From the NCBI RefSeq assembly GCF_014303395.1, contig NZ_CP060298.1:2542001-2606000 (forward strand): 64,000 nt of DNA, in the 5' to 3' direction. The stretch's first letter is position 1; every line of letters starts with the position of its first letter. This stretch comes from Nakamurella sp. PAMC28650. GTDB lineage: Bacteria; Actinomycetota; Actinomycetes; Mycobacteriales; Nakamurellaceae. The notes under the pieces were generated by a model, which had not been told where the DNA came from, ran no database searches, and saw nothing but the letters and a program-made list of their open reading frames with translations. Positions 54,581 through 64,000 of this stretch are shown here, one piece after another. Both the position numbers and the translations under genes were made by a program.

Positions 54581-55456
54581 ATGTTCTCCACAAACCCCAT
54601 CGGTATCCACGCCCTCGTCTGGGCCGGTGACACCTCGGCAGAGTCGGTGACCAAGGCCATCACCAGGACGAAGGAGGCCGGGTACGACCTGCTCGAATTC
54701 TCGCTGCACGACTCGCTCAACCTGGACGTCGTCGCGGCGCGCACCCAACTGGAGGCAGCCGGTCTTGCGGTGGTCTGCTCGCGGGGACTGGCGTTCGACG
54801 CAGACGTCTCCAGTGAAGACCCGGACACCGTCAAGCGCGGGGCGGTCCTGCTGGCGGACTCCCTGGAACTCACCCACCACCTGGGCGGCACCCATTTCAC
54901 CGGTGCGCTCTACAGTGCGCTCGGCAAGTACGACCGGCCGCTCTCGGCCGCGGGCCGCGCCAATGTCGTTTCGGTCCTGCGAGACCTCGCGCAGCAGGCC
55001 GCCGGGTGGGAGATGACGCTCGGGCTGGAGATCTGCAATCGGTACGAGACCAACGTCCTCAACACCGCCGCCGACGCCCTCCGGATGGCCGACGACATCG
55101 GCGCCGACAACGTGACGATCCACCTCGACACCTACCACATGAATATCGAGGAAGATGATTTCGTCCGTCCGGTACTCGCCGTCGGCGACCGGTTGGGCTA
55201 CGTCCACATCGGCGAGAACCACCGCGGCTACCTGGGTTCGGGACATCTGGACTTCGCGCCCTTCTTCCGGGCGCTCGAGTCGATCAATTATGCCGGCCCG
55301 ATCACCTTCGAGAGTTTCTCCTCGGCGGTCGTGGCCCGGGGCCTGTCCAACGACCTGGCCATCTGGCGGAATCTGTGGACCGACGGAGCGGATCTGGCCA
55401 AGCACGCGAACCAGTTCATCCGGGAACAGCTCTTCCTGAGCCGGGCCGCGGCGTAG
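54581..55456 (+). CDS. Sugar isomerase/epimerase, D-tagatose 3-epimerase-like
   Basis: The 291-residue TIM barrel of the xylose-isomerase-like superfamily has the ketose 3-epimerase metal ligands in order: Glu in LGLEICNRYETN, Asp in IHLDTYHMNIEE, His in GYVHIGENHRG and Glu in ITFESFS. These enzymes move the C3 hydroxyl of ketoses (for example fructose/psicose or tagatose/sorbose). CGAGGAGC precedes ATG 54581. Its place at the end of the ABC operon suggests the imported sugar is a rare ketose epimerised on entry. Confidence 0.88.
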   Translation: MFSTNPIGIHALVWAGDTSAESVTKAITRTKEAGYDLLEFSLHDSLNLDVVAARTQLEAAGLAVVCSRGLAFDADVSSEDPDTVKRGAVLLADSLELTHHLGGTHFTGALYSALGKYDRPLSAAGRANVVSVLRDLAQQAAGWEMTLGLEICNRYETNVLNTAADALRMADDIGADNVTIHLDTYHMNIEEDDFVRPVLAVGDRLGYVHIGENHRGYLGSGHLDFAPFFRALESINYAGPITFESFSSAVVARGLSNDLAIWRNLWTDGADLAKHANQFIREQLFLSRAAA

Positions 55457-55680
55457 GGTCCGCCCGACCTGCGCGACCTATTCGGTGTCATCGATCCGCT
55501 CGTCGCGCCGGTGCTGCCGGGCCGATCAGGCACCTTCCGGTTCGTCTTGAATTTCTTCAACGGCCGTGGGGAAAGTGGACTCTCGCGCCCGGTGTCGGTG
55601 CCGACTGGTACTCCTTTGTCCATGAACACGACCCCCGGCTCGAGAAGACTGCAGTGCCAGTTCGACCGGTTGCTGCGCGC

Positions 55681-56790
55681 ATGACCGCTGAGTCCGACCC
55701 AGCAGCCCGCATCTCCCGAGGACGGTCACACGAGGAAGCGCAGTTCCCGGCGGTGGCCGCGGCGCCATCTCTGCCCGAGTGGTACCCCGACCTGCTGGCG
55801 GCGGTCAGCGACCACGTGACGGCTGGCCGTCGACGCGCGGTGGCTGCAATGAACGCTGGGATGGTCGCGACCTACTGGGCCATCGGCCGGGCGATCCTGA
55901 ACCGCCAGGATCAACAGGGTTGGGGCGCCAAGGTCATTGACCGCCTGTCCACTGACCTGCGGGAACGATTCCCGGATGCGCGGGGCTACTCGCCCAGGAA
56001 CCTGAAGTACATGCGCGCCTTCGCCGCGGCTTGGCCCGAGGAAGCAATTGTGCAGCGCACCGCTGCACTATTGCCGTGGAGGCAGCATCAGGTCCTCCTG
56101 GACAAACTCCCGGACGCGACGTCAAGGCTCTGGTATGCCGATGAAGCCGTGCGCCAGGGCTGGTCGAGAGATGTGCTGGCTCAACAGATCGCCGGCCGAC
56201 TCCACGAACGCTCGGGCCGGGCGATCTCGAACTTTGCGGTGACCTTGTCTCCGGCCGACTCGGACATGGCGCAGGAGGCCACCCGGGATCCCTACCTGTT
56301 CGACTTCGTCGGGATCGCGGACTCGCGCCGGGAACGTGATCTGGAGGCAGGCCTGATCGAGCACATGGAGAAGTTTCTCCTCGAGCTCGGCCAGGGCTTC
56401 GCGTTCGTCGGCCGTCAGGTGCACCTGGAGATCGGTGACCAGGACTTCTATGCCGACCTTCTCTTCTACCACCTCAGGCTGCGGGCGTTCGTCGTGATCG
56501 AGCTGAAGGCAACGGATTTCGAGCCCGGTTATCTGGGACAGCTCGGGATGTACATGGCGGCGGTCGATGATCTCCTCGCCCATGTCGACGACAAGCCGTC
56601 CATCGGTCTGCTCCTGTGCCGGACGAAGAACAACGTGGTGGCCGAGTACGCCCTCCGCGGTTCGAAGATGCCCATCGGCATCGCTGAGTGGGCGACGACC
56701 GTCACCACCGCGTTGACGGAGGAGCTGACTTCGAGCCTGCCCAGCATCGAGGACATTGAGGCGGAGCTTTCGTCAAAGCACGACGTCTGA
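55681..56790 (+). CDS. YhcG-family (DUF1016) PD-(D/E)XK nuclease
   Basis: The 369-residue protein has the DUF1016 N-terminal helical domain (VSDHVTAGRRRAVAAMNAGMVATYWAIGRAIL, DLRERFPDARGYSPRNLKYMRAFA, LPWRQHQVLLDKL) and a C-terminal nuclease domain. The nuclease motifs are QDFYADLLFYH and VVIELKATDFEPGYLGQLGMYM (Asp...Glu-x-Lys, about residues 258-275). Such proteins are linked to restriction and other defence loci and to R-loop or DNA-junction processing. ATG 55681 was chosen by position relative to the domain; no strong ribosome binding site is seen. It lies upstream of the Wadjet genes on the same strand. Confidence 0.88.
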   Translation: MTAESDPAARISRGRSHEEAQFPAVAAAPSLPEWYPDLLAAVSDHVTAGRRRAVAAMNAGMVATYWAIGRAILNRQDQQGWGAKVIDRLSTDLRERFPDARGYSPRNLKYMRAFAAAWPEEAIVQRTAALLPWRQHQVLLDKLPDATSRLWYADEAVRQGWSRDVLAQQIAGRLHERSGRAISNFAVTLSPADSDMAQEATRDPYLFDFVGIADSRRERDLEAGLIEHMEKFLLELGQGFAFVGRQVHLEIGDQDFYADLLFYHLRLRAFVVIELKATDFEPGYLGQLGMYMAAVDDLLAHVDDKPSIGLLLCRTKNNVVAEYALRGSKMPIGIAEWATTVTTALTEELTSSLPSIEDIEAELSSKHDV

Positions 56791-56846: not shown

Positions 56847-56881
56847 CTGAGATTGTCCAGCAGCCTGCTGGACAATCTCAG
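56847..56881. promoter_or_regulatory. Perfect 35-bp inverted repeat
   Basis: Two 17-bp arms (56847-56863, CTGAGATTGTCCAGCAG, and its exact complement 56865-56881) flank a single base. It lies 56 bp after the YhcG stop and 34 bp before the -10-like TAGGCT (56915-56920) of the next gene. It could be a strong terminator hairpin without a T-run or an operator upstream of the HTH-protein and Wadjet genes. Confidence 0.7.
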
Positions 56882-56928: not shown

Positions 56929-57624
56929 ATGACGGATCTCGAGATGCTGGCGCGCGTTCGACTACTGCGCGCCGAGGGCAAGGCACCGAAGCAGATCGCT
57001 CGCATTCTGGGCCTGAGCCCGTCCGTGGTGGCGCCGCTGGTGCGCGCAGTGGCCGCCGAACGGGACGAGGCCGCTGTCGCGCCTGCGGTGGTCGGCTGCT
57101 GGGTCAACCAGGGATGGAGCCTTGGCCTGTCGGTCGACCCAGACCAGGGATGGCAGGACCAGGCGAACGATGACGACAGCACCGCTGGGTTGGTCTGTGT
57201 GCTGCTGGCCAGGCGGCACCGCTTCGACAAGGTGACGGTGTGCGGATACCTGGCGGATGTCTACTGCCTGGGCATCAAGAACACCTTCGGACCCGAGGTG
57301 ATGGGCGAGTTCGAGTTCAGCAAGTTCCAGCCGGAGTTCTTCGGTGCCTTCCAAGGTTGGCAGACCGCAGACATCGAACTGGCCCGGCACCTGATCTTCG
57401 GGGCGGTCGACTACGCCCGAGCCCTCGGGTTCGAACCTCAGGGTGAGTTCGATGAGGCCGCCGGTCTTCTCGGACCTTGGACCGGACCGTCGGCCATCAC
57501 CTTCGGCAAGGATGGCAAGCCGTCCTACGTGTCCGGCCCCTACGACGACCCCCGTCGGATCCTCAAGACTTTGGAACGGACCGCGGCGGGCCAATTCGAA
57601 TTCAGCGTGGCCGCTGACCACTAG
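56929..57624 (+). CDS. HTH-containing conserved protein upstream of Wadjet
   Basis: The 231-residue protein opens with a helix-turn-helix resembling those of sigma or resolvase type (LARVRLLRAEGKAPKQIARILGLSPSVVAPLVRAV). The remainder is a compact domain with conserved-looking blocks GCWVNQGWSLGL, GLVCVLLARRHRFDKVTVCGYLADVYCLGIKN and ARHLIFGAVDYARALGFEPQ. I recall similar uncharacterised proteins but no function. Leaderless initiation is likely (TAGGCT 8 nt before the ATG). Its position suggests a regulator, but it may be unrelated to the Wadjet operon starting 117 bp downstream. Confidence 0.7.
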   Translation: MTDLEMLARVRLLRAEGKAPKQIARILGLSPSVVAPLVRAVAAERDEAAVAPAVVGCWVNQGWSLGLSVDPDQGWQDQANDDDSTAGLVCVLLARRHRFDKVTVCGYLADVYCLGIKNTFGPEVMGEFEFSKFQPEFFGAFQGWQTADIELARHLIFGAVDYARALGFEPQGEFDEAAGLLGPWTGPSAITFGKDGKPSYVSGPYDDPRRILKTLERTAAGQFEFSVAADH

Positions 57625-57740: not shown

Positions 57741-59210
57741 GTGGCCGAGCCCGGACGTGCTGACCTGTTCCGATACCTCACCGCGGGCGAGTCCCAGGAC
57801 TACATCGCGATCATGGGCCTGTTCACCCGGACCTTGCTGACGGACCTATCGGCAGCCGACGTGGCCTCCTCGATGGCCCAGGACGGCCCGGTCCTCGAGC
57901 TCGACACGGTGGAACTGCGCTGCCGACAGCTGGTGAGCTGGGGGAACCTCGTCCCGTCACTGAGAGATGCACGGGTCAGCACGGTGGCCGAGTTCCTGCG
58001 TTCCCGGTCCCGTTACCAGGTGTCCAAGTTGGGTGGGCGGGTTCATCGCACCGCCCTGGACATCCTGCTGGCGGCGGACGGAGCTCGCGAGGTGGCCAGG
58101 GAGCTTCTCGGCCAGATCGTCGACTCGCTCGATCGTGTCCTGTCGGCGCTGCGCAACGGCGTTGATGCGGACACGGTGGCCGGCGAGGTGACGGCCATCT
58201 TCAACAACCAGCGGCTCTTCAACGACAGTGCCCGAGACTTCTACGCCTACCTGTCCGGGGTCCTGAGCCGCTACGACCTCGGCGGGGAGGAATACGCACA
58301 GTTCAAGGCACTGCTGCTGGACTACGTCGACCTGATCACGGCTGACGTCAACCGGCATGCTCCGGCGGTGTCGGCGCGTCTGCAGGAAGTCCTCGGCGCC
58401 CTCGACCCGCTGCTCGAGTTGCTGGCCACGGTCCGGGGTCTGGCGGTGCCGGACGGGACAGTGGTCGAGCGGGCCGGGGGTCGTTCGCGGGAGGACTGGG
58501 AGGAGCTGGCCCGCTGGTACGGCGCGAGCGGTACCGACTCCGGCACAGAGCAGTTGCGTGCCGCCGCCGGCCAGGCCCTCGGGCAACTGATCAACAACGC
58601 CAAGCGCTTGCTCGACTCGTCAGGCACCGGCTTCTCCCGCCGGGCCGACCTGCTGCGGCTGGCCCGTCGATTCGCCGACCTGGACGATCTGAGTGCACAC
58701 CGACTTTTCAACAGCACGTTCGTGGCCTATCCCGCACGCCACCTGCTGCTGGGGCCGGACGAGCCGGACCCGCGGACCGGACCGGCCACCTCGTGGTGGG
58801 TCTCGGATCCGATCGAAGTGCCGATCTCGCTCCGGGAACGGGGCGATCGGGCGATTCGCGGCCGGTCGTCCCGGGTGCCCGACCCGACCGCAGATCGTCA
58901 GCGACTGATTGCGCAAGCTCGCCGGGAAGCCGAGCTGCGCAACGCGGCGGTCGCCGAGTTGGCTGCGGTCGGTGATCTGAACGGTGCACGAATCTCCCCG
59001 GCCGCCCGGGAACTTCTTCTCGATCATCTCTCGAAGTTGTTGGCGCAGAACGCCACCGGGCTCACCGATTCCGATACCGGTCTGACGTTGACGGCCAGTC
59101 CTGGGTCGGACACGGTGGTCGGCGCCGAAGATGGCACCATCACCTTCGCCGGCCTGGAGTTGCGGATCTCGGCCACCTCTTCGGCGGACATCCAGGAGGA
59201 AGCATCATGA
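57741..59210 (+). CDS. jetA: Wadjet JetA (DUF2397/TIGR02677, kleisin-like)
   Basis: The 489-residue protein begins AEPGRADLFRYLTAGESQDYIAIMGLF and matches the DUF2397 family, the kleisin-like (MukF-like) subunit. It links the two heads of the SMC motor in the plasmid-restricting Wadjet system. Recognisable blocks are VSKLGGRVHRTALDILL, IFNNQRLFNDSARDFYAYLSGVL and the helical SRRADLLRLARRFADLDDLSAHRLFNSTF. GTG 57741 follows AGGAGGAGG; GTG 57735 is an alternative. It is followed by jetB with an ATGA overlap. The gene order matches what I know as Wadjet type II. Confidence 0.88.
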   Translation: MAEPGRADLFRYLTAGESQDYIAIMGLFTRTLLTDLSAADVASSMAQDGPVLELDTVELRCRQLVSWGNLVPSLRDARVSTVAEFLRSRSRYQVSKLGGRVHRTALDILLAADGAREVARELLGQIVDSLDRVLSALRNGVDADTVAGEVTAIFNNQRLFNDSARDFYAYLSGVLSRYDLGGEEYAQFKALLLDYVDLITADVNRHAPAVSARLQEVLGALDPLLELLATVRGLAVPDGTVVERAGGRSREDWEELARWYGASGTDSGTEQLRAAAGQALGQLINNAKRLLDSSGTGFSRRADLLRLARRFADLDDLSAHRLFNSTFVAYPARHLLLGPDEPDPRTGPATSWWVSDPIEVPISLRERGDRAIRGRSSRVPDPTADRQRLIAQARREAELRNAAVAELAAVGDLNGARISPAARELLLDHLSKLLAQNATGLTDSDTGLTLTASPGSDTVVGAEDGTITFAGLELRISATSSADIQEEAS

Positions 59211-60406
59211 CATCGCCCCCCACCTCGACCTGGCGTCAGGATTCCGCCGGGCGTCAGCAGGCCGCCCGGTACCTGCTGGCGACCCCCATCCTGACGGCAT
59301 CGCGCGAGCCGGAGCGGCTGGCATTGGTGCGTCGTCACACCGCTGCTCTGAAGTCGATGTTCGCAACCCAGCTGGGCTACGCGCTGGTCGTCGAGGCCTC
59401 CTTCGCCCGGTTGATCAAGTCGCCGTTGCCGGTGACGGCCCCTTCTCGCCCCGCCCGGCGCCAGACCGACGAGAGTGCCTTCGGTGCAATGACCTACACG
59501 CATCTGGCGCTGATCTGCGCCGCCCTGCTCGCGCCCGGGGTGGGAGACCAGATCCTGATCTCGGCGCTGGTGGACCAGGTCAGGGCCGACGCGGCAGAGC
59601 AGTCGATCGCGATGTCCGACCACATCTCCGATCGCCGGCAACTGGTGACCGCGCTCGGCCTGCTGCTGAGCTGGGGTGTGCTGAGCGAGACGGAGGGGTC
59701 GGTCACGGCCTGGGGTGAGCGCCGGGAGGACGAGGCTCTCTTGACGGTGCATCGGCCCCTGCTCGCGCTGCTGCTACCCAACCCATTGCAGGAGTTGATG
59801 TCGAGCGCCGACGCAGGGGAGCCGGCGTCGGGTGATCAACCCCGGCGCCGGTTGCGGCGCCGGCTGGTGGAGAGCCCGGTTGTGTTCCGCGTCGACCTCG
59901 ACGACGAGGAGCGCGATGTCCTGTCCCGCGAACGATCCGAACTGACCCGCCACCTGGACGAGAACTTCGGCCTGACCCTGGAAGTGCGAGCCGAAGGAGC
60001 CCTGGCCTACGACGCGGCCGGCACCCTCACCGACGTGGAGTTCCCCGGCAGTGGCGCCGGCAGCGCCAAGCAGGCCGGGCTGATGCTGCTGGATCGGCTG
60101 ATCGTCTCTTTGGCACCCGGCGCCGAGTCGCAGGTGCTGATCGGCGAGGTCAACTATCCGGGAGTGCTCGTGAGCTGGCCGGAGATCGACCGGCTCATCT
60201 CCGAACTGATCAACGAGAACAAGAAGCGTTGGCGTGCAGCCTATGTCGCTTCGCCCAGCACTCTGCGGGCCGATGTCGTCGAACTGCTGCAATCACTGGA
60301 CCTGGTCCGGTCCGTCGCCGACGGATTGGTCGTCTTCCCCTTCGGTGCCCGCTACCGCCCGTCCATCACCGCCGGTCCCGCAACGCTGTTCGAGGTGAAC
60401 TCATGA
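59207..60406 (+). CDS. jetB: Wadjet JetB (DUF2398/TIGR02678, MukE-like)
   Basis: The 399-residue protein belongs to the DUF2398 family: RQQAARYLLATPILTASREPERLALVRRHTAAL at the start, YTHLALICAALLAPGVGDQILIS, DRRQLVTALGLLLSWGVLSETEGS and a C-terminal SELINENKKRWRAAYVASP. It is the tandem-winged-helix (KITE/MukE-like) subunit that bridges kleisin and SMC heads. Start and stop overlap jetA and jetC by 4 bp each, showing strict translational coupling and stoichiometric production. Confidence 0.88.
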   Translation: MTSPPTSTWRQDSAGRQQAARYLLATPILTASREPERLALVRRHTAALKSMFATQLGYALVVEASFARLIKSPLPVTAPSRPARRQTDESAFGAMTYTHLALICAALLAPGVGDQILISALVDQVRADAAEQSIAMSDHISDRRQLVTALGLLLSWGVLSETEGSVTAWGERREDEALLTVHRPLLALLLPNPLQELMSSADAGEPASGDQPRRRLRRRLVESPVVFRVDLDDEERDVLSRERSELTRHLDENFGLTLEVRAEGALAYDAAGTLTDVEFPGSGAGSAKQAGLMLLDRLIVSLAPGAESQVLIGEVNYPGVLVSWPEIDRLISELINENKKRWRAAYVASPSTLRADVVELLQSLDLVRSVADGLVVFPFGARYRPSITAGPATLFEVNS

Positions 60407-63400
60407 CTGCTTTCGCTCTGCCCGCCGTCGGACTGCCGGAACAGCTACCGGTCCGTCGCGAAGGGCGGTGGCGGCTGCACCGGGCCGGCATCGTCAACGT
60501 GTGGCAGTACCTGGACAACGAGTTCGACATCTCCGGCGGCCGGATGATCCTGCGCGGGACCAACGGCTCCGGCAAATCACGTGCGCTGGAGATGTTGTTG
60601 CCGTTCCTGTTGGACGGCGACCGTCGCAAGATGGACGCGACCGGGTCGGGCAAGGTCAGTCTGGACGAACTGATGAAGGCCGGGATCGGTGACCAGACCA
60701 ATCGCAGCGGCTACCTGTGGGCCGAGTTCGCGCGGCCGGGTGGGTACCTCACCGTCGGAGTGTTGTTGCGGTACAGCCGGTCCGCCCACCGGACGCAGCC
60801 CTGGTTCTTCACCACCCCGTTCCGCGTCGGCGAGGAATTGACACTGCTGTCCCGGAGTCGCGACGTCCTCACGCTCGACGAGTTGAAGCAGCTGATCGGA
60901 GCGGAGCGGGGTACCGATTCGGCTGAGGTGCACCGCGAGCGTGTGCGGACCGAGTTGTTCGGCCTGCGCGGTGATTCCGGTCGCGACCGGTTCGCCGGCC
61001 TGCTGCAACTGCTGCACACGCTCCGTTCACCCGACGTAGGCAACCGGATCGACGAGGGCAAACTGCCTCAGATTCTCAGCGATGCGCTGCCGCCACTGCG
61101 GGAGAACACCCTGACCAGAGCCGGCGACCAACTCGACGGCCTGACCGAGACCAGGGCCGGCCAGCAACGACTCGAGAACTCGCTGGTTCGCGTGCAGCAT
61201 TTCCTCCAGGTATACCGCCGCTACGCCGCCGGGATGTTGGTCGAGACCGCCACCGCAACGGCCGGCTCCGCGGACGACTACCTGTCCGGGCAGAAGGCAG
61301 CCCGGCGCACCCTGCGGACGCTCGAGCAACTGATGCAGGAGGCGGTGGAGAAGCAGGCCGCGCACGAAGACCTCCGCGATCAGGTCGGTGAGCTCAACTC
61401 GGCCATCGAAGGCATCAAGGGGCGGGAGATCTTCAAGACTGCCGACGATCTCGCGCAGCGCGACCATGCGGTCGCGGCCCTGGCGGTGGCCGCCGACGCC
61501 AAACTGAATTCGGCCGACGTACAACGGCGGAACCACGGTCGCGCCGTGGAGGCCGCCGACGGTCGGCTCCGGGAGGTGCAGCACAGCGTCGACGGTGCCT
61601 CATCGGCCCTGGCGAAGGCACACAGCGCGCTGCGGGCGGCGCGCCTGCCGGACAGCGGTCTCGTGGAAGCCATTCGCGGTATCGAGTTGCCGGACGAGCC
61701 GGGGCAGGCCGTGGTGCGCACCGAACGCGAAGGCCCTCCGGTGTCGTTGGCACGTCCGCTGCCCCGGCGGTTCGAGACGTCACCGCTGGACCTCGAAGCC
61801 CCGCGCAGTGCCGCGACCGCCTCGGCCGAGGCGGCCCGCCGGCGGGCGGAGGTCGCCGGTCGGCGGATGACGGAGGCGAAGCGGCTCGTCGATCAGGGCG
61901 CCCAGGTGCAGCGCGCCGAAGATGAAGCAGCCCAGGCCCTCGAACTTGCCGAGAGGGACGCCTTCGAGGCGGCCGAAGCCGTCCTGAACAGGGACGCGGG
62001 CGCGGCGGAACTGGCTTCGGACTGGCGTGCCTGGATCATTGGTCCCGGCACGGTGGAGCTGCTCGGCCCGCTCGACTGGTCCGTCACGGTGCTGGCTCCA
62101 CTGCTCGACGACCTGAACGCGCTGCTGGACGAGAGCTTGATCGATCTGGAGCAACTCGACCAGCTCGCCGCCGAGCAGGCGGCACCGGCGCGTGACGCGA
62201 TGGCAGCCACCCGGCACGATCTCCTGGCTCAGGATGCTGCAGACATGCTGCAGCGCAACGTGTTGCGGGACGAGCAGCGGCAGCTGCTGGCGGCGCAGGA
62301 CCCGGCGCCGGCGGAACCGCCCTGGCTGCTGCCCGGCCGCTCCGGTGTCCCGTTCTGGCGTGCCGTCGATTTCGTCGACGACGTGCCGGAGCAGGCGCGG
62401 GCCGGAATCGAAGGCGCGCTGTTGGCGGCCGGTGTGCTCACGGCGACCATCACCGCTGACGGCAGTGTCCGGGCCGCGTCGGGCGAGATCCTGCTCAGCG
62501 TCAACGGATCGGCGGCGGCCAGGCCGTTGTCCCGGTCGCTCCGTCCTGACGAGGCAGCCGGAATACCGCCTGCTCTGGTCAACGGACTGTTGGCCATCAT
62601 CGGACTCGATGAAGGTGCCGCGGTCACCTCGGTCGGAACCGACGGGAGCTGGCGCAACGGGCCGCTTCGTGGGCGCCACCAGGTTGCCGACGCCCGGCAC
62701 ATCGGTGCGCAGGCCAGGGCTCGGCGACGGGCAGCGCGCCTGGCCGAGATCGACTCCGAACTCGCGGCTCTGGAGGCCGCCGCCGAACTTCGCCGTACCG
62801 CGCTCGAGGTGGTCAGAGCACGCGAGGACGCATTGAATCGGCACCTGCGCACCGCCCCTTCCGGGCGGCAGCTGTCCATCCTCCGGTCGGGTTGTCGCAT
62901 CGCCGGGACCCGAGCCACGAACAGCCGCACCCGCGGCGACGAGGCGAACCGGCGGGCGCAGGAGCTTCGGTCGCGGTGGTCGGCCGAGCTCGTCACCCAC
63001 CAACAGGCCTGCGCCCACTTCGATCTGCCCGCAGACGAGGATGCGCTGCGCCGGGCCACATCGGATGCTGCCGACGCTGATCGGCACTGTCGCGCGCTGG
63101 CCGACGCGCTCCGAGACCTCGCCGACCGTATCGCCAAGCACGGGGCGAGCCTGCGGGTCGAGCGGGAAGCTCGTCAGGAACGGGACCAGAGCGAAAGGGC
63201 TGCGACGGAGTCCTGGCAGAGCTGGATGCATGCGGCCACCGAATTGTCGGCGCAGCACGAGGTACTCGACCTCGACGTGGCACAGGCAGCGGCGGAGCTC
63301 AAACGCAGCACCGAGACGCTCGCCGAGGTCAACCGGGCCGAGCAGCGGGCGGGGCGGGAAATCGCGGCGCTGCAGGGGAGGCTGGGCGAAGCCAGGGCCG

Positions 63401-64000
63401 CGCGGGCGCAGGCCGACACGCAGGTGGAAGTGCTGCGGGCCCTGATGATCTCGGCAGCGGAATTGTTGTCCCGCCGACTGCTGGTACCCGGACTGCTGAG
63501 CGCAGCGACCGCAGAGACGGTCGACCCGATAGAACGGCCCGAGCAGCCGGAGGCAGTGAAGAAGGTGACTGATCTCCTGCTGGCCGTGGTGAAGAAGCCC
63601 GCCCAACCAGTCGGCGAGAACGCTGTGCTCAACGCATTCCAGGCCTTCGATCGGGACGTGTCCGGTCAACTGGACACGGCACGGTCGATGGAAGAGGGCG
63701 TTCACGTGGTGCAGGTGGCCGGCGTCGGGGACGTTCACACCCTGGCCGGCGCCGCGTCCGAATTGAACCGTCGCGTCGAGGTGGGTCGAGCTGCCCTGAC
63801 CGATCGCGAACGGGAGGTGTTCACCACCTTCGTGATCGGCGGAGTGGCCGAGGAACTCAGGCGTCAGGTCAATCAGGCCAAGGTGCTGATCGCGGTGATG
63901 AACGACAGCCTGAAGTCCATCCGGACGACCAACGGCATCGGCGTCCGGCTGGGCTGGGGCCTCGGCGATCAGCATTCGTCGCTCGCCCGGGTGTTGAAGC
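60403..64000 (+). CDS. jetC: Wadjet JetC SMC-like ATPase (TIGR02680), truncated by window end
   Basis: At least 1199 residues are in frame without a stop. After GRWRLHRAGIVNVWQYLDNEFDISGG comes Walker A RGTNGSGKSRAL (about residues 51-62), then long coiled-coil arms rich in Ala, Arg and Glu with a central hinge-like globular part (about residues 540-760). The ABC signature and Walker B must lie beyond the right edge. JetC is the loop-extruding motor that recognises small circular plasmids for cleavage by JetD. A DUF2399-type JetD gene would be expected immediately downstream. Confidence 0.9.
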   Translation, partial: MTAFALPAVGLPEQLPVRREGRWRLHRAGIVNVWQYLDNEFDISGGRMILRGTNGSGKSRALEMLLPFLLDGDRRKMDATGSGKVSLDELMKAGIGDQTNRSGYLWAEFARPGGYLTVGVLLRYSRSAHRTQPWFFTTPFRVGEELTLLSRSRDVLTLDELKQLIGAERGTDSAEVHRERVRTELFGLRGDSGRDRFAGLLQLLHTLRSPDVGNRIDEGKLPQILSDALPPLRENTLTRAGDQLDGLTETRAGQQRLENSLVRVQHFLQVYRRYAAGMLVETATATAGSADDYLSGQKAARRTLRTLEQLMQEAVEKQAAHEDLRDQVGELNSAIEGIKGREIFKTADDLAQRDHAVAALAVAADAKLNSADVQRRNHGRAVEAADGRLREVQHSVDGASSALAKAHSALRAARLPDSGLVEAIRGIELPDEPGQAVVRTEREGPPVSLARPLPRRFETSPLDLEAPRSAATASAEAARRRAEVAGRRMTEAKRLVDQGAQVQRAEDEAAQALELAERDAFEAAEAVLNRDAGAAELASDWRAWIIGPGTVELLGPLDWSVTVLAPLLDDLNALLDESLIDLEQLDQLAAEQAAPARDAMAATRHDLLAQDAADMLQRNVLRDEQRQLLAAQDPAPAEPPWLLPGRSGVPFWRAVDFVDDVPEQARAGIEGALLAAGVLTATITADGSVRAASGEILLSVNGSAAARPLSRSLRPDEAAGIPPALVNGLLAIIGLDEGAAVTSVGTDGSWRNGPLRGRHQVADARHIGAQARARRRAARLAEIDSELAALEAAAELRRTALEVVRAREDALNRHLRTAPSGRQLSILRSGCRIAGTRATNSRTRGDEANRRAQELRSRWSAELVTHQQACAHFDLPADEDALRRATSDAADADRHCRALADALRDLADRIAKHGASLRVEREARQERDQSERAATESWQSWMHAATELSAQHEVLDLDVAQAAAELKRSTETLAEVNRAEQRAGREIAALQGRLGEARAARAQADTQVEVLRALMISAAELLSRRLLVPGLLSAATAETVDPIERPEQPEAVKKVTDLLLAVVKKPAQPVGENAVLNAFQAFDRDVSGQLDTARSMEEGVHVVQVAGVGDVHTLAGAASELNRRVEVGRAALTDREREVFTTFVIGGVAEELRRQVNQAKVLIAVMNDSLKSIRTTNGIGVRLGWGLGDQHSSLARVLK

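Follow-up and report, generated by a model that had tools for sequence, protein, structure and literature searches.

The Nakamurella Locus

The DNA considered here, called the window throughout, is the whole 64,000-nucleotide (nt) stretch from position 2,542,001 to 2,606,000 of contig NZ_CP060298.1, in the single-contig, 5.63-Mb genome of Nakamurella sp. PAMC28650 (G000:C1:2542001-2606000). Its last part carries, all on the forward strand, a gene for a YhcG-family nuclease, a gene for a helix-turn-helix (HTH) protein and a Wadjet operon, and our subject is a pair of palindromes, one of which lies inside the YhcG coding sequence and the other just after it. The features are as follows.

55681-56790, + strand: YhcG-family nuclease with DUF1016_N and PD-(D/E)XK YhcG_C domains (PF17761, PF06250, PADLOC PDC-S02)
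56044-56074, + strand: palindrome within the YhcG coding sequence (score 11; 0 of 300 synonymous shuffles as good)
56847-56881, no strand assigned: stand-alone perfect palindrome (17-nt arms, 1-nt center)
56929-57624, + strand: HTH protein of an unnamed family (weak HTH matches only)
57741-59210, + strand: JetA2 (DUF2397/TIGR02677), GTG start (Pfam, NCBIfam, PADLOC)
59207-60406, + strand: JetB2 (DUF2398/TIGR02678) (Pfam, NCBIfam, PADLOC)
60403-64000, + strand: JetC2, SMC-like ATPase (TIGR02680), running past the window to window-equivalent position 64554 (NCBIfam, PADLOC)
64551-65855 (window-equivalent, outside the window): JetD2 (TIGR02679), by profile match

The longest open reading frame of the nuclease gene runs from 55375 to 56790, and we infer the ATG at 55681 to be its likely start.

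A Palindrome at a Fixed Position in YhcG Genes

The in-gene palindrome of the window, GCAATTGTGCAGCG-CAC-CGCTGCACTATTGC, encodes the peptide AIVQRTAALLP at about amino acids 124-134. The homologous position was compared in 37 YhcG loci, 10 of them from genomes of the same class, one from E. coli K-12, 12 from plasmids, and 14 from viral contigs (a search of the viral contigs with a single YhcG protein found none; an alignment query gave the 14 loci); two of the viral loci were duplicates and were dropped, leaving 35 nonredundant genes from several phyla. For each gene, the palindrome score at the homologous 60 nt was set against 300 synonymous recodings drawn from that gene's own codon use. 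At most 3 of the 300 recodings were as good in 29 of the 35 genes, and at most 15 in 32 of them; three loci (L257-L259) had been fetched through a palindrome match, and without these 26 of 32 genes pass the 3-in-300 threshold.

The signal is confined to a narrow part of the gene. When the genes were scanned in sliding windows, 44 of 81 passed at amino acids 120-139, as against only 5 of 905 below amino acid 110 or from amino acid 150 on, and the immediate flanks were nearly as empty (1 of 37 at amino acids 110-119, 0 of 33 at 140-149). Within the aligned part of the gene, the highest-scoring palindrome falls at amino acids 120-139 in 29 of the 35 genes and elsewhere in 3, the remaining 3 having none with a score of at least 8. 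A score of at least 10 is reached at the in-gene site in 21 of 35 YhcG genes versus 13 of 143 whole control genes of 300-420 amino acids, which were drawn from JetA2 loci and are mostly GC-rich; in 130 of these controls no palindrome scores above 9. Across several phyla the site replaces, at one place and with no insertion, a series of conserved codons (VQQ..AQLPW).

Its sequence, however, is anything but fixed. In the arms of 34 in-gene palindromes (the 35 genes less L145), 313 of 331 cells are Watson-Crick pairs, the rest being 6 G.T, 5 A.C, and 7 other combinations, and at most positions the identity of the pair varies; the seventh pair, for example, is GC in 21 palindromes, CG in 10, and TA in 3. 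These counts ignore kinship among the genes, and choosing the best local palindrome inflates the pairing rate, the pair types and the comparison of G.T with A.C being less affected. The arms thus differ among genes yet stay complementary, with no wobble bias. A second, broken YhcG gene in the window's own genome (L151) carries a different palindrome, GAAGTTGTCCCACGCTGCGTGGGACAACTTC.

Alternatively, the palindromes could be RNA hairpins in the yhcG mRNA and at its 3' end, bound by YhcG or by a host factor for the control of expression. Their location in the gene, where most share the same codons, or just after it would suit this idea, and the window stretch folds better than 200 of 200 shuffles (z -3.38). 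But the arm mismatches have no preference for wobble, and the near equality of the G.T and A.C counts favors duplex DNA over an RNA hairpin, although these numbers are small. In-gene palindromes with centers of 0 or 1 nt are common, which is tight for an RNA loop, and stand-alone copies are also met 2-7 kb from the gene (2.1 kb away in R. jostii, L251, and after gltD in E. coli). We consider the hairpin explanation unlikely.

Palindromes Beside and Away from YhcG Genes

The initial annotation had mentioned a striking palindrome along with the HTH protein, and it is indeed exceptional. This 35-bp sequence (56847-56881) begins 56 nt beyond the stop codon of YhcG, and with its perfect 17-nt arms it exceeds every other perfect inverted repeat in the window, the next having arms of 12, which is also the maximum in 20 first-order shuffles. 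Its 23-bp core occurs only once in the 5.63-Mb genome, even with 3 mismatches allowed, and Rfam contains no match to the palindrome. In one frame it encodes EIVQQPAGQSQ.

A DNA search with this palindrome gave matches in Rhodococcus, Calothrix, and Nostoc plasmids, at up to four places per plasmid in Rhodococcus and three in Calothrix. The 35-nt query matched 34 plasmid records, in five of which the match fell in a gene annotated "PDDEXK nuclease domain-containing protein"; in the three that were opened this gene is a YhcG, 48-55% identical, and the match (EFVQQPAAQLPW, EFVQQAAAQLPW, or AFVQQPVGQIPW) is inside its coding sequence. Since its core resembles the in-gene sites of other YhcG genes, the window palindrome seems, judged from these likenesses, to belong with YhcG. 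Twelve Vibrio plasmids match 24 nt of it, and in the one that was opened (L260) no YhcG was found. The exact core was absent from the viral contigs; a relaxed core pattern found a single contig (L262), which has no YhcG match. A search with the palindrome arm gave 13 matches, and matches in phages were weak.

Copies just past the end of the YhcG gene were seen in two other organisms as well. In R. opacus 1CP a second palindrome lies 43 nt beyond the stop codon, and E. coli K-12 has three copies of the core CAGACN(1-3)GTCTG within yhcG, one 15 nt downstream of its stop codon, and one after gltD, about 7 kb away; it is missing from two other 50-kb E. coli stretches. The 33-nt in-gene site of E. 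coli was found, on chromosomes only, in 3526 of 5426 E. coli genomes, and in 3386 the match covers at least 80% of the site. In K-12, related palindromes stand at both ends of the stretch from after gltD to yhcG (L261:633 and L261:8130-8995), which contains gltF, yhcA, yhcD, yhcE, and yhcF and is possibly a unit of gain or loss.

Copies of this kind raise the question of a mobile palindromic element, comparable to those of Rickettsia (mentioned in PMC4316617) or to repetitive extragenic palindromic (REP) sequences, that spread into YhcG genes and into other DNA as well. The multiple places in noncoding plasmid DNA of Rhodococcus and Calothrix would be accounted for, and so would the six of eight opened stand-alone loci in which the stretch (5-11 kb) around the match holds no YhcG sequence (L252, L254-L256, L260, L262). 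Against it, the in-gene site takes the place of conserved codons at a single position in proteins of several phyla and is no insertion; moreover, the arms differ among genes, and the two 50-kb E. coli stretches lack the core. This origin appears rather improbable.

Slightly less credit still is due to the proposal that the window palindrome is a mere transcription terminator of the YhcG gene. It forms a strong hairpin 56 nt from the stop codon, but no T-run follows and a terminator scan finds none; nor does a terminator explain why close relatives of the core lie within the coding sequences of other YhcG genes.

The YhcG Protein

The initial annotation had recognized a PD-(D/E)XK nuclease of the YhcG type upstream of the Wadjet genes and on the same strand, and the domain matches bear this out (PF17761 at 2.2e-39 and PF06250 at 4.3e-59; PADLOC PDC-S02). 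The presumed active-site residues D260 and K277 are invariant in alignments of 5 and of 12 sequences, and the window protein reads ELK at 275-277. The AlphaFold2 model is of mediocre quality overall (predicted local distance difference test, pLDDT, 66.8), with residues 31-180 at about 74-91. In this model the N-terminal domain (58-179) matches Noc (7ng0) with Z 7.8 over 101 aligned residues at 3.2 A, ParB (7bnr) with Z 7.7, and a complex of Noc with its site (6y93) with Z 7.5; the C-terminal domain matches 2vld (Z 10.0), EndoMS (5gke, 9.9), and Hjc (1gef, 8.6). The likeness of the N-terminal domain to the DNA-binding domains of ParB and Noc is weak and suggestive only.

YhcG is present in E. 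coli K-12, has matches in 476 plasmid records, and is listed by PADLOC as a candidate defense gene. As far as the literature searched goes, no function is known for it. PMC1189080 predicted a PD-(D/E)XK nuclease near the archaeal Holliday-junction resolvases with an unassigned helical N-terminus, and an antisense RNA to yhcG is reported in PMC7967276. A conserved palindrome in or beside YhcG genes was not found among the open-licence papers listed, an absence which is no proof. Two of the YhcG loci (L277, L279) have the gene inside type I restriction-modification operons, flanked by the specificity gene on one side and by either the R gene or the methyltransferase gene on the other, and two others (L280, L283) have it directly beside plasmid parA/parB genes.

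The Neighboring Wadjet Operon

Downstream lies the Wadjet operon. Wadjet restricts small circular plasmids; JetABC forms an SMC motor and JetD is a Toprim nuclease. The first three genes, with DUF2397, DUF2398, and SMC-type domains and 4-bp overlaps, had been assigned to a type II-like Wadjet in the initial annotation, and the fourth was predicted to lie beyond the window; all of this holds. JetA2 (PF09660, 1.3e-109) and JetB2 (PF09661, 2e-86) are both called by PADLOC, and JetC2 (TIGR02680, 3.6e-158) has kept its ATPase motifs (Walker A GTNGSGKS, signature LSQGE, Walker B LILLDD); all three exceed the thresholds of their curated models, JetA2 only just in the case of TIGR02677 (174.3 against 165.85 bits). 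The jetA/jetB (59207-59210) and jetB/jetC (60403-60406) junctions are ATGA overlaps of 4 bp. Reading past position 64000 reveals a JetD2 gene (TIGR02679, 197.5 bits with a cut-off of 196) that overlaps jetC by 4 bp (GTGA, at window-equivalent 64551). The acidic Toprim residues E300, D342, D344, and E411 are invariant wherever the letter is present among 38 aligned JetD proteins, and nothing in the genome matches the JetD_C family of type I. JetA is also a sequence relative of the chain named JetA in PDB 9qe0/9qe1 (E 2e-9). Judged by its sequence, jetABCD is an ordinary type II Wadjet operon with no gene missing, and family knowledge would assign to it the restriction of small circular plasmids. 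Types I to III of Wadjet exist, type I being the subject of most work, as stated in PMC10586767. Within the genus, 3 of 17 genomes (G000, G002, G013) have JetA2, and the nearest Wadjet compared is that of G013, with a JetA 63% identical; upstream of the latter (L062), an apparent Vsr-type nuclease and an IS3-like transposase were read from protein starts.

For comparison, 60 other JetA2 loci were fetched (58 + 2), short, weak, and some full-length JetA2 places being left out; the loci are mostly about 20 kb each and several end at contig ends. A JetD match is missing in 18 of the 60. Four of these are cut short or lack a JetC match; the other 14 (L083, L086, L089, L092, L093, L095, L096, L099, L102, L103, L104, L107, L108, L118) are type II-like JetABC loci with no DUF2399 JetD in the locus stretch despite at least 2.2 kb after JetC. 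On the JetC tree, the label of JetD presence needs 5 changes. We read these operons as cases of repeated nuclease loss; perhaps they are domesticated chromosomal SMC complexes. In one supported clade (L085, L087, L088, L090) JetC precedes JetA, giving the gene order C, A, B, D. Two loci, L116 and L236 (the latter on a Streptomyces plasmid), have an extra gene and one for a protein of about 180 amino acids immediately before jetABCD, preceded at a greater distance by SbcCD-like genes; the extra gene is annotated ImmA/IrrE in L236 and, by our reading, has an XRE-like start in L116.

Are the YhcG and HTH Genes Parts of Wadjet?

The initial annotation had further proposed that the nuclease, the HTH protein, and the palindrome might be regulatory or accessory parts of the Wadjet locus, a proposal that comparison does not support. 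Neither gene has a tblastn match in any of the 60 other JetA2 loci, and a profile search with the HTH gene also gave 0 of 60. Among 296 genomes of the class, YhcG is present in nine, three of which have a JetA2 match, and the two are adjacent in the window's genome only; YhcG is therefore rejected as a Wadjet partner. Homologues of the HTH gene occur in 14 of 66 class genomes with a JetA2 match and in 4 of 61 relatives, beside JetA2 only in the window's genome; G076 has one further, partial match (40 residues), at a distance of 11 kb from JetA. In the Streptosporangiaceae the HTH gene is found in 54 and JetA2 in 201 of 297 genomes; by our reading, 44 genomes have both, and of the 41 comparable among the matches listed, one has them adjacent (G528).

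Only two of 80 named HTH loci have a type II Wadjet as a same-strand neighbor, L175 of Microbispora hainanensis and L227, an Acidimicrobiales metagenome-assembled genome with one gene between the HTH gene and Wadjet. In L175 the Wadjet operon separates the HTH gene from c35, two genes that are direct neighbors in two Microbispora relatives (L189, L191) and have one gene between them in L192. In our judgment, and by no formal test, two of 80 exceeds what chance would be expected to give, and for this reason a tendency of the HTH gene to share islands with Wadjet is possible. The contexts of the homologues are otherwise varied, and with adjacency to JetA2 so rare the HTH protein was rejected as a Wadjet regulator. 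The protein has only weak HTH matches in sequence, and the structural matches of its model (pLDDT 93.7) cover about residues 2-51 only, the N-terminal HTH. It is probably a bystander, part of neither system; the probability that it is loosely connected to such islands is small.

That the palindrome is an operator through which the HTH protein regulates Wadjet is very improbable, for despite its position 47 nt upstream of the HTH gene, itself 116 nt upstream of jetA, and despite the two homologues adjoining Wadjet (L175, L227), no such palindrome is conserved upstream of HTH homologues (among 15 of them perfect arms reach 7 at most; arms of at most 9 in 79 of 80, with one of 12), and in the two Microbispora relatives the HTH gene directly precedes a gene lying beyond the M. 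hainanensis Wadjet operon.

The YhcG, HTH, and Wadjet genes are preceded by a sugar ABC (ATP-binding cassette) operon ending in a psicose-epimerase-like gene. Because a similar operon in the congener G009 (epimerase 75% identical) is followed by different genes, the block was probably acquired. Within it, the Wadjet operon and the YhcG gene with its presumed DNA site appear, on a slight balance of the evidence, to be two unrelated things standing side by side. Adjacency alone, as this result warns, is no ground for assigning HTH genes or palindromes to a defense operon.

A Proposed Site Recognized by Its Own Nuclease

We lean toward the view that the palindrome is a DNA site recognized by its own YhcG, so that the locus would comprise a solitary YhcG gene with its cognate site, the binding being predicted. 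The observations behind this are the position of the in-gene palindrome, its excess over codon-level expectation, the complementarity kept despite sequence change, and a post-stop palindrome in three loci. YhcG would act as a dimer, its ParB/Noc-like N-terminal domain binding the palindrome as DNA and its EndoMS/Hjc-like C-terminal PD-(D/E)XK domain cutting or nicking. The gene itself contains one palindrome, at about codon 128, and here the second, perfect one follows the stop codon. The outcome of recognition might be repression, self-cutting, or mobility; instead of an attack on foreign DNA we favor self-control, in which the enzyme would bind its own gene or, if present in excess, cut the locus that encodes it.

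Several results weigh against this reading. Six of the 35 genes fail the 3-in-300 threshold (recodings as good: L145, 75; L263, 31; L265, 300; L270, 9; L271, 4; L280, 4), one of which, L265, has a palindrome at another place in the gene. Among the 29 genes for which 200 nt of downstream sequence were available, six have a palindrome scoring at least 9 after the stop codon, and only three of these resemble the in-gene sites (the window, R. opacus 1CP, and E. coli); since so few have a post-stop copy, the in-gene site is the rule and the post-stop copy an extra. The two sites of one locus are clearly alike only in E. coli: the window's post-stop site agrees with the in-gene arm of its own locus at 8 of 11 bases, as do those of three of four other loci, the arms of actinobacterial and cyanobacterial loci being much alike anyway. 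Around stand-alone matches, a YhcG sequence was seen in only two of the eight loci opened, the R. jostii locus L251 and Calothrix L253, where a YhcG fragment has one copy within it and another next to it. Finally, the ParB-like match remains below Z 8, concerns a helical domain, and depends on a model of pLDDT 66.8; Foldseek with this model gave no match at E 0.001, and a permissive Pfam scan of YhcG found no ParB family.

A broader formulation, to which we give somewhat less than even credence, would make YhcG a ParB-like, palindrome-addressed nuclease whose cognate site lies in its own coding sequence and would have changed as the protein did, in several bacterial phyla. Such an enzyme, carrying its own tag, would mark, control, or cut the locus that encodes it, and might also move or count it. 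It is unusual for a protein-coding sequence to contain a signal at the DNA level that paired changes preserve across phyla, and the presumed site can be read directly from a yhcG sequence.

Comparison with Known Systems

The Wadjet operon departs from other type II systems in sequence divergence only; the DUF2397, DUF2398, TIGR02680, and TIGR02679 genes in order, their 4-bp overlaps, and the Toprim and ATPase motifs are the same. The nuclease likewise has both domains of the YhcG/DUF1016/COG4804 family. REP sequences with their RAYT enzymes are palindromes in or around genes; here, by contrast with these and with the Rickettsia elements, the palindrome occupies a fixed codon position in the gene of its presumed own enzyme. 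A further parallel is offered by ParB with parS and Noc with its binding sites (NBS). ParB and Noc bind palindromes, and in B. subtilis parS lies inside spo0J; for these reasons, and for the weak fold likeness of the N-terminal domain, YhcG dimers are proposed to bind the palindrome of their own gene. Both arrangements would thus share a palindromic site near or inside the gene of its binder, but the YhcG sites vary strongly among family members, and YhcG carries a nuclease domain.

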